Under the pieces are notes generated by a model. It did no database searches. It saw only the letters and a list, made by a program, of their open reading frames with translations, and was not told the DNA's origin. From Antarctobacter aquimaris (GTDB lineage: Bacteria > Pseudomonadota > Alphaproteobacteria > Rhodobacterales > Rhodobacteraceae), in contig NZ_FXYF01000001.1 of NCBI RefSeq assembly GCF_900184945.1, positions 310,001 through 374,000 on the forward strand: a DNA stretch of 64,000 bases, given 5' to 3'. Shown one piece after another: positions 60,273 through 64,000 of the stretch; position 1 is the stretch's first letter, and every line of letters begins with the position of its first letter. The translations under genes were made by a program, and so were the position numbers.

Positions 60273-61838
<1,566 letters not shown>

Positions 61839-61848
61839 CGGTCTTTCC

Positions 61849-61956
61849 TCAGAAATGGGGCCGGGGGGCAGGGCGGCTCCCGCGGGGACGGAGGCGGCTG
61901 GGGGACGTCCCGCAGGGGACGGACCTGTGCCGGTCAATCGGTCCGATCGCTGTCAT
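61849..61956 (-). CDS. Possible second upstream ORF before leuA
   Basis: ATG at 61956, preceded by AGGAAGC, opens 35 codons beginning M-T-A-I-G-P-I-D and ending 10 bp before the leuA start. It has only one leucine codon and is Arg/Pro-rich. The ribosome-binding site lies within the attenuator pairing segment 61966-61973, so translation of it could be gated by that structure. It may equally be chance. Confidence 0.3.
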   Translation of the reverse strand: MTAIGPIDRHRSVPCGTSPSRLRPRGSRPAPRPHF

Positions 61957-61965
61957 GAGAGCTTC

Positions 61966-62050
61966 CTAACTCGTGCGTGAAGTGGGTCGGCGCGTCACAC
62001 ATCTCCTCTGAGCACGCGCGCCGAAGGGGCCACGCTCAGAGGCGAGTTAG
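61966..62050 (-). promoter_or_regulatory. leuA attenuator: mutually exclusive RNA pairings
   Basis: On the leuA strand three pairings are possible. (1) CTAACTCG inside the leader codons (62050-62043) with CGAGTTAG (61973-61966), 8 bp. (2) CCTCTGAGC, spanning the leader stop (62042-62034), with GCTCAGAGG (62013-62005), 9 bp. (3) GGCGCGCGT (62022-62014) with ACGCGCC (61995-61989), which encloses the second arm of pairing 2. Pairings 2 and 3 cannot form together. A ribosome stalled on the leader Leu codons would cover the first arms. No U-run follows, so the output may be Rho-dependent termination or translational. Confidence 0.7.
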
Positions 62051-62074
62051 CAGTAGAGCCGCGCCAATGGCCAT
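62036..62074 (-). CDS. leuA leader peptide
   Basis: Twelve codons, M-A-I-G-A-A-L-L-L-T-R-L, then TGA. Four of twelve residues are leucine and the consecutive run is CTA-CTG-CTA; CTA is very rare in this GC-rich genome. No clear ribosome-binding site precedes the ATG at 62074. An in-frame ATG pair at 62122/62119 lies almost at the predicted transcription start, so a 27-28-residue leaderless version ending in the same codons is possible. The position about 200 bp before leuA and the alternative RNA pairings make a leucine-sensing attenuator very likely. Confidence 0.75.
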   Translation of the reverse strand: MAIGAALLLTRL

Positions 62075-62129
62075 CGGCGCCGGAAAAGGCGCAACAGGGG
62101 CGATATGGCGAGCGGTCATCATGGGCGGA

Positions 62130-62157
62130 ACTATACGCCGCAAATCGCAAATGAAAA
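62130..62157 (-). promoter_or_regulatory. Predicted sigma-70-type promoter of leuA
   Basis: On the minus strand TTTTCA (62157-62152), a 16-bp spacer and TATAGT (62135-62130). The predicted start near 62123 falls directly before the leader ATGs. This lies in a locally AT-rich patch in otherwise GC-rich sequence. The rest of 62158-62281 holds the divergent gene's promoter, with no recognised box. Confidence 0.5.
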
Positions 62158-62281: not shown

Positions 62282-64000
62282 ATGAAAGCTTGGCTGGCGG
62301 TGCTCTTTGCGCTGTGCACGACCGTCGCGGCGGCGGAGGGGCGCGATGCGTCCCGCGTCTACGTCTTTGGCAATTCTCTGGTGCATCACCTGGGCGAGAC
62401 GGAGGGGCACACAAACGTCCCGCACTGGCTGAACGAGATGGCCAGGGCGGATGGAAAGACGCTGGCGCTGGACGGCCAGTGGGGATTCCTGCGCAACTTT
62501 GCCGACGGGTTGCCGCCGACGGCCAACTGGTCCTTTCCCGGCGTGGCCGGGGCCTGGTCGCCCGGTCAGGGCGGCTTTCGCGATGGCCGCTTTGACGCCG
62601 TGGTCATCACGCCCGCCAACTTCATCCAGTACCAGCTGCCCGACGTGCCCTATGACGGCGGCAATCCCACCAAGGAAAGCCCGCTGGGCGCGGTGCAGCG
62701 ACTGCTGGATTGGGTGAGCGCCAACAGCCCGGACTCGCGCCTGTTCATCTACGAGGGCTGGTCGGCGATGGACGGCCACGCCGCCCGCTTTCCGCCCGAT
62801 GCGGCCGAGACGGTGGCCTACCACGCCTACAACGCCGGTGAGTATCACCAGTGGTACAAGGACCTGGTGAACGTGCTCGCGGTCACGCGCCCGAACGTGC
62901 CGGTGACGCTGATCCCGGTGGCGGCGACCCTGGCCGAGCTGTTCGGTCCCGGCGGGGTGCTGGAGGATGTGCCGGTCGAGGCGCTGTATGTCGACGACGC
63001 GCCGCACGGCACGCCCACGCTGTACCTGCTGGCGGCCATGGTGAGCTATGCCTACCTCTACGAGGCGCCGCCGCCCGCGGGCTTTGCCCCGCCTGTGACG
63101 CTGCACCCGGACGTGGTGGAGAAATACCCCGAGATTGCCGCCAGGATCTGGGCGACGGTTTCAGGCCAGGCCGCCGCTCCCGCCGGCACGGCCGCACCCG
63201 CAGCGGCCGCGCCCGCCCCCGCCGTGGCCGCGCCGACCCCCCTGCCAGAGCGCCAGCCCGTCGCCCTGCCGCCGCCCGGACAGCGGCCCGAAGGGTTGCC
63301 CGCGCTGGCGATCGGGCTGAACGGCATTTCCGACTGGTCGACGCAGCATCCCTTTCTGAACCTGATGAAATCCTCGCGCGGCTGGGTCGGCAACATCGGC
63401 GACACCTGGGGTGCGGTCCGCACCGAAGAGCTGCGCGCCGGTGGCCACCTCGATGAAAACGACTGGCCGCTGCGGATCCCCGAAGGCGTCGATGCGCTGG
63501 AAACCGTGATCCTGACCGAACAGCCCGCCGAGGCAACCTCGCTGCGCGGCGATTACGTCATGACATGGCAGGGCAAGGCAGAGCTGAAGCTGGTCGGGCG
63601 GGCCAGGCGCGTACGCACCGAGGAGGGGAGGCTCACCTTTTCCTACGAGCCGGGCGAGGGGCTGGTGGCGATCTCGATCACCGCCATCGACCCGGACGAC
63701 CCGATCCGCGACATCGTCATCCTGCGCGCCGAGCATGTTCCGCTGTACGAGGCGGGGGCGATCTTCAACCCCGACTGGCTGGCGCGGATCGAGGATGTGC
63801 GCGCGGTGCGCTTCATGGACTGGATGGTGACCAACGGCTCTCCGGTGTCCACCTGGGACCAGCGGCCGGTGATGCAGACGGCCAGCTGGGGCGAATGGGG
63901 CGTGCCGGTCGAGGTCATGGTGCGGCTGGCCAACCTGATCGGGGCGGACCCCTGGTTCAACATGCCCCACCGCGCCGACGACGATTATGTCCGCCGCTTT
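62282..64000 (+). CDS. Secreted SGNH-hydrolase-like/glycosidase-like protein (C-terminus beyond window)
   Basis: An uninterrupted frame from the ATG at 62282 to the window end gives 573 residues with no stop, so the gene continues. Signal peptide 1-18 (V-A-A-A-E). The first part (20-275) resembles an SGNH hydrolase: F-G-N-S32-L with the putative nucleophile serine and D239-A-P-H242 as the D-x-x-H pair. A Pro/Ala linker (about 297-335) leads to a second domain with L-N-G-I-S-D-W-S-T-Q-H-P-F, F-M-D-W-M-V-T-N and D-P-W-F-N-M-P-H, typical of extracellular carbohydrate-active or adhesin-type roseobacter proteins. It is divergent from leuA. Function not known. Confidence 0.8.
   Translation, partial: MKAWLAVLFALCTTVAAAEGRDASRVYVFGNSLVHHLGETEGHTNVPHWLNEMARADGKTLALDGQWGFLRNFADGLPPTANWSFPGVAGAWSPGQGGFRDGRFDAVVITPANFIQYQLPDVPYDGGNPTKESPLGAVQRLLDWVSANSPDSRLFIYEGWSAMDGHAARFPPDAAETVAYHAYNAGEYHQWYKDLVNVLAVTRPNVPVTLIPVAATLAELFGPGGVLEDVPVEALYVDDAPHGTPTLYLLAAMVSYAYLYEAPPPAGFAPPVTLHPDVVEKYPEIAARIWATVSGQAAAPAGTAAPAAAAPAPAVAAPTPLPERQPVALPPPGQRPEGLPALAIGLNGISDWSTQHPFLNLMKSSRGWVGNIGDTWGAVRTEELRAGGHLDENDWPLRIPEGVDALETVILTEQPAEATSLRGDYVMTWQGKAELKLVGRARRVRTEEGRLTFSYEPGEGLVAISITAIDPDDPIRDIVILRAEHVPLYEAGAIFNPDWLARIEDVRAVRFMDWMVTNGSPVSTWDQRPVMQTASWGEWGVPVEVMVRLANLIGADPWFNMPHRADDDYVRRF

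Follow-up and report, generated by a model that had tools for sequence, protein, structure and literature searches.

A leaderless, leucine-rich leader ahead of leuA as a probable translational attenuator in Alphaproteobacteria

The leuA gene of Antarctobacter aquimaris, which encodes 2-isopropylmalate synthase (60273–61838, ATG at 61838, 521 aa, with the Pfam domains PF00682 HMGL-like and PF08502 LeuA_dimer), lies on the minus strand of the 64,000-nt stretch of DNA analysed here (the window). An initial annotation had placed a leucine-rich leader peptide and attenuator upstream of it at 62036–62157, which raises the question of whether such an element exists, how far it extends and at what level it would act on leuA. 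The proposal is supported by conserved leucine codons, three RNA pairings and a promoter that sits almost on the leader ATG, and the alignment of relatives that the annotation had suggested as its own test returned covariation in all three pairings and conservation of the leucine codons, not their loss. The annotated extent holds promoter and leader and stops short of the structure, which runs past 62036 to 61964.

A recognisable promoter precedes the leader on the minus strand. A −35-like hexamer, TTTTCA (62152–62157), is separated by 16 nt from a −10 hexamer, TATAGT (62130–62135), and the seven nucleotides TCCGCCC lie between TATAGT and ATG ATG ACC, with the transcript predicted to start at or adjoining A62122. 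This promoter is the sole match within 1.1 kb, where shuffled sequences lead one to expect 0.1. Because the ATG stands only 7 nt past TATAGT, we regard a leaderless mRNA as almost certain, as had been suspected; the A of the ATG sits at the expected transcript start, and therefore no upstream Shine-Dalgarno sequence is possible. The geometry is kept in relatives: 61 of 71 leaders have an in-frame ATG 6–9 nt (mostly 7–8) after TATNNN, an arrangement shared by 10 of the 332 remaining ATGs of that DNA. Their TTTTC-like −35 stands at a fixed distance, and among aligned relatives T is its first letter in 61/61 and its second in 60/61. The open reading frame (MMTARHIAPVAPFPAPMAIGAALLLTRL followed by a stop; 62036–62122) comprises 28 codons plus TGA, and 28 codons is also the modal length in relatives. 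The 12-codon frame originally proposed, which starts at an internal ATG, was dropped in favour of the start at 62122 with its conserved promoter spacing.

Two further features were seen at this end of the locus. The N-terminal part of the leader peptide (62122–62096 and relatives) contains a conserved HI around codons 6–7 (of 61 leaders, 32 have the H and 45 the I), distant from the leucine codons and the pairing arms. A gene divergent from leuA (62282–64000, plus strand), without a Pfam match at E ≤ 0.001 across its first 572 residues, has an upstream region that overlaps the leader promoter.

At its 3′ end the leader reads CTA CTG CTA ACT CGC CTC TGA, with the putative regulatory codons CTA CTG CTA at 62048–62056, the annotated fourth leucine codon, CTC, at 62041–62039 and the stop at 62038–62036. 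Leucine occupies codons −7, −6, −5 and −4 before the stop in 56, 65, 63 and 69 of 69 leaders, the last three counts being those for the CTA CTG CTA positions. Codons −7 to −5 keep CT as their opening bases but accept any of the four letters in third place, and we take this to indicate that selection acts on the encoded amino acid as well as on the RNA. Codon usage, for which leuA genes and the window served as sources, is skewed: at codons −7 to −5 of the relatives' leaders, CUA and CUU make up 15% and 30% of leucine codons versus 1.1% and 7.5% in leuA at those loci, an enrichment at the leucine codons preceding −4. The rarity of CTA that had been proposed to sensitize stalling is real (1.5% of leucine codons in the long ORFs of the window), and we dropped it as the only cause of CUA since the last codon of the run, −4, is CUU or CUA and the choice tracks the complementary downstream arm (arm 1′, below). 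UUG is almost missing from leader leucine codons (1 of 184, versus 11% in leuA); the first-position C may be required by pairing, or one particular tRNA may be the sensor. The stop codon stands at the identical place in 29 of 29 examined matches, as UGA, UAG or UAA; a second tally was left out because its search pattern itself demanded a stop.

The RNA from the leucine codons to the next Shine-Dalgarno sequence contains six arms on the minus strand that form three pairings. Arm 2 (CCUCUGAGCG, 62033–62042, holding the last leucine codon and the stop codon) and arm 2′ (UGCUCAGAGG, 62005–62014) form a hairpin; arm 3 in its loop (UCGGCGCG, 62017–62024) reaches beyond arm 2′ to arm 3′ (CGCGCCGA, 61987–61994) as a pseudoknot; and arm 1 (CUAACUCG, 62043–62050), which covers leucine codons and reads as an anti-Shine-Dalgarno sequence, closes a basal helix with arm 1′ (61964–61973; CGAGUUAG at 61973–61966), which overlaps the Shine-Dalgarno sequence UUAGGA (61969–61964). 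The annotation had foreseen mutually exclusive arms, one on the leucine codons and another on the leader stop, and all three pairings covary. Helix 2-2′ shows two-sided changes at 8 of 10 pairs in the wider set, and the whole structure at 10 of 13, with the observed covariation reached by none of 500 shuffles, uncorrected for relatedness. Two alignments were used, A4, fitted to the structure, and A2, which was not. The inner pairs are 92.6% formed across relatives with two-sided changes at none of them, and at two pairs in a wider, structure-fitted alignment.

The two longer-range pairings were assessed by exchanging partners among species. Own-species partners scored 19.6 for the pseudoknot 3-3′, versus 17.1 ± 0.3 after exchange, and 16.1 for helix 1-1′, versus 12.6 ± 0.3 with mismatched species, while a neighbouring leader stretch put through the same test as 1-1′ gave 12.4 versus 11.9 ± 0.26. 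Such shuffles ignore kinship; the compensatory changes in 1-1′ are nonetheless several and distinct (CUUAGCC/GGCUAAG, CUAAGCC/GGCUUAG, CUAACC/GGUUAG, CUAAUC/GAUUAG and CUUACGCU/AGCGUAAG, against CUAACUCG/CGAGUUAG in the window). The folding energy of the single window sequence is unremarkable (z = −0.9), and the evidence for the element is comparative.

We assessed the distribution of the element with covariance models. Among 80 leuA loci fetched by protein similarity, nearly all carry a leucine-rich leader ORF ending at a stop; 69 of them were used to build model R1, and R2 is a broader model restricted to Alphaproteobacteria. R1 has a single significant match in the genome of the window (E = 5.6e-12) and matches 119 of 121 Rhodobacteraceae genomes, sampled at one per genus. 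Across Alphaproteobacteria, R1 matches 43 of 289 genomes and R2 matches 99 of 378 good-quality genomes (about a quarter), and in a phylum-wide draw, with an unstated number of genomes from other classes, 90 of 90 matching genomes were alphaproteobacterial. leuA lies just downstream on the same strand in 109 of 111 matched loci, some of them overlapping; leuA itself was not used in the search. Weak extra matches in six genomes (L182, L244–L248) were taken as chance rather than second copies because no leucine leader stood ahead of a leucine gene. No known Rfam 15 family matches the element, either in the window or among seven relatives, and a match to the livK family inside leuA is weak and far below the family cut-off. 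In the open literature we found no report of the element from Alphaproteobacteria; an earlier report in the subscription literature is possible.

Related arrangements were seen at other loci. Neither R1 nor R2 matches the loci of yeast-type leuA in two alphaproteobacteria (L081, L082). Leucine-rich short ORFs do occur upstream of yeast-type leuA, at L081:1126–1185 and on pSymB of Sinorhizobium meliloti (L268:463–588); the latter reads MTQADAHKIAAIFSGHDANRAPARAFASLLLLGLIRGCRVR before its stop, has TATAGG 7 nt upstream of its ATG and is not matched by R2. A 17.9-kb plasmid of Phaeobacter inhibens M650 (L269) carries leuA together with a LEU element of its own (R2 E = 5.9e-14).

The gene whose Shine-Dalgarno sequence is paired by arm 1 differs among genomes. 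In the window, UUAGGA lies 7 nt ahead of the ATG (61956) of a 35-codon ORF (61849–61956, minus strand), whose stop codon TGA (61851–61849) overlaps the leuA Shine-Dalgarno sequence GAGGAAAG (61850–61843). In eight loci (L008, L020, L104, L106, L152, L166, L249, L252) a cupin gene (PF07883) lies between leader and leuA, and in seven of the eight arm 1′ is the cupin Shine-Dalgarno sequence (AGGA core), 4–8 nt before the cupin ATG, with compensated 1-1′ flanks (CCUAACC/GGUUAGG, CCUAAUC/GAUUAGG and CCUUAGCC/GGCUAAGG). These insertions amount to a natural experiment: the anti-Shine-Dalgarno pairing goes with the first gene, whatever that gene is. The 35-codon ORF is itself probably a decayed cupin gene with start and stop signals kept, because its end resembles that of a cupin gene (best score 37, reached by 0 of 200 shuffles; mean 18 and maximum 31 for non-cupin loci), with a weaker score against the other cupin loci. 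A decayed cupin version is also seen in L006. In cupin-free loci, arm 1′ is the leuA Shine-Dalgarno sequence at 6–11 nt in a minority and mostly lies 15–30 nt upstream of the ATG. Counting against the translational reading set out below, in about two thirds of loci with a strong helix 1-1′ arm 1′ ends at that distance from the leuA ATG, beside the best Shine-Dalgarno sequence and not on it. CUC CUU and CUC CUA complement AAGGAG and UAGGAG, such that the sensing codons are themselves the anti-Shine-Dalgarno sequence.

We then quantified how a stalled ribosome would alter access to this site in silico. In the window, UUAGGA in the free RNA is unpaired with a mean probability of 0.20; a ribosome-sized mask placed over any leucine codon raises this to 0.65–0.70, and a mask elsewhere in the leader has no effect (0.20), indicating that stalling on the leader would change access to the next Shine-Dalgarno sequence. 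Among 168 relatives not selected for helix 1-1′ (a separate set of 72 loci for accessibility was chosen for strong 1-1′), the leucine-codon mask opens the stretch from −30 to −5 ahead of the first gene in 130, and a control mask brings no change. A mask on the stop codon frees the Shine-Dalgarno sequence as much as masks on the leucine codons do, and the response must therefore rest on how long ribosomes dwell at the leucine codons. Dwell times are not obtainable from folding, and the pseudoknot is not representable in the folding model.

Taken together, we consider it likely that the alphaproteobacterial LEU element is a leaderless, leucine-rich leader gene that acts as a ribosome-mediated translational attenuator; from sequence and folding we infer the stalling, the response to leucine, the coupling and control exerted on translation. 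With leucyl-tRNA plentiful, ribosomes would complete the leader and depart, and the ribosome-free RNA would fold into hairpin 2-2′, locked by pseudoknot 3-3′ and closed by helix 1-1′, in which the leucine codons would mask the next Shine-Dalgarno sequence and leave the first downstream gene untranslated. With leucyl-tRNA scarce, a ribosome would pause on the leucine codons and occupy arm 1, freeing the Shine-Dalgarno sequence. The gene served would be leuA directly in most relatives, the cupin gene ahead of leuA in some, and the 35-codon ORF in the window, whose stop, overlapping the leuA Shine-Dalgarno sequence, would hand ribosomes to leuA by coupling.

Control at the level of translation is favoured because the Shine-Dalgarno sequence opens under leucine-codon masks and no terminator is present. 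As the annotation had stated, the window leader lacks a terminator U-run; the one terminator-like match in the region lies upstream of the predicted transcript start, and TTTTT occurs between hairpin and leuA in 1 of 169 loci. This leaves classical attenuation of transcription at an intrinsic terminator, the mechanism of enterobacterial leu operons, with a negligible chance: a leucine leader before leuA and mutually exclusive pairings are what it would predict, and the missing U-run, in the window as in nearly all relatives, and the lack of a match to the Rfam leucine leader largely refute it. The same absence of an intrinsic terminator fits a Rho-dependent mechanism, in which the leader and fold would be the same and the output would be premature termination: with the Shine-Dalgarno sequence in arm 1′ closed, the C-rich stretch up to leuA would go untranslated and Rho would halt the polymerase, from which a translated 35-codon ORF would protect the transcript in the window. 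There the stretch from arm 1′ to leuA is indeed visibly C-rich and exceeds 120 nt, but in most relatives only 75–95 nt, much of it structured, separate the leader stop from leuA, leaving little room for a rut site, and the conserved parts finish at the Shine-Dalgarno sequence, not at a terminator. We consider Rho as the main output unlikely; it is possible as a second layer on translational control, at best in genomes with long spacers like that of the window.

A different reading removes the ribosome from regulation altogether and has a regulatory protein recognise the fold, the leucine codons being conserved only through pairing. This was the interpretation preferred in 2005 for the actinobacterial LEU element (PMC1262725), on the argument that changes of leucine codons in the Streptomyces coelicolor leuA leader gave effects inconsistent with classical attenuation, a result that counts against ribosome-mediated control here as well. 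The compact and strongly conserved fold would suit a binding protein. Under this reading one would not expect leucine to persist at codons −7 to −5 with any of the four letters in third place, a leader ORF to have its own promoter-to-ATG geometry, or the stop to hold its position in all 29 matches examined, and the protein proposed in 2005 is reported from Actinobacteria only (PMC1262725). We therefore regard recognition by a protein as improbable, more so than termination by Rho, and retain translational attenuation as the preferred reading.

The closest described system is that actinobacterial LEU element, a relation that the annotation had not drawn. It has a pseudoknot and a leucine leader whose leucine codons form a base stem with the leuA Shine-Dalgarno sequence (PMC1262725, Seliverstov et al. 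2005), and leuL1 of S. lividans, MRFGLLLLSCRGEGL followed by a stop, is reported to be leaderless and without a terminator (PMC8079986). Shared with the element described here are the leader ORF with a run of leucine codons upstream of leuA, the hairpin with a pseudoknot from its loop to downstream sequence, the base stem (formed in the window with the Shine-Dalgarno sequence of the 35-codon ORF), a probable alternative inner hairpin and no evident transcription terminator. The S. lividans and alphaproteobacterial leaders have the core peptide LLLLSC in common, and several of the latter end in LLLLSCL directly before the stop. In four actinobacterial leuA upstream regions, R2 matches two leaders in place (Nonomuraea, E 4e-5; Microbacterium, E 4.5e-4), all four have a 10–12 bp hairpin and a 5–7 bp loop pairing, and three have a leucine-codon pairing 4–9 nt before the leuA ATG, the best pairing in Tsukamurella being 22 nt away. 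The main difference is the stop codon, which falls within the 5′ arm of hairpin 2 here and in the loop in the Actinobacteria examined. The leaders are also longer here (about 28 versus about 15 codons), the helix sequences differ, a cupin gene rather than leuA is the first gene served in some alphaproteobacterial genomes, and the host is a member of the Rhodobacteraceae whereas the described range is Actinobacteria.

We class the window element as a LEU element in a new phylum; its profile relation to the actinobacterial examples may still reflect convergence. More tentatively, and at somewhat less than even odds in our estimation, Actinobacteria and Alphaproteobacteria could share by descent or transfer one regulator, a leaderless, ribosome-operated switch whose sensing codons are the anti-Shine-Dalgarno sequence and which also serves an inserted cupin gene. 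Three other known systems were compared. The enterobacterial leu attenuator (Leu_leader, RF00512) likewise has leucine codons in a leader upstream of leuA, but the element here lacks an intrinsic terminator and an Rfam match, is leaderless and pairs with a Shine-Dalgarno sequence. The rnTrpL/peTrpL trp attenuator of S. meliloti (PMC10117765) has a leaderless leader peptide ORF in an alphaproteobacterium, but responds to Trp through transcription attenuation, with no Shine-Dalgarno-sequestering pseudoknot element described. The uORFC-8-2 cysS motif of Rhodobacterales (PMC8632094) is a candidate for ribosome-mediated attenuation in the same order, but involves Cys codons and cysS, with transcriptional read-through proposed.

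These results re-open the question posed in 2005 of how the LEU element works, and the comparative data favour ribosome stalling over a bound protein. The switch is missing from Rfam 15, and the literature at hand places the LEU element only in Actinobacteria; in Alphaproteobacteria it is present in culturable genera, including Paracoccus, Phaeobacter and Rhodobacter. For the Rhodobacteraceae, a large family of marine and soil bacteria, leucine synthesis is thus probably under the control of an RNA switch in almost every genus, as it probably is in a good part of the Alphaproteobacteria.
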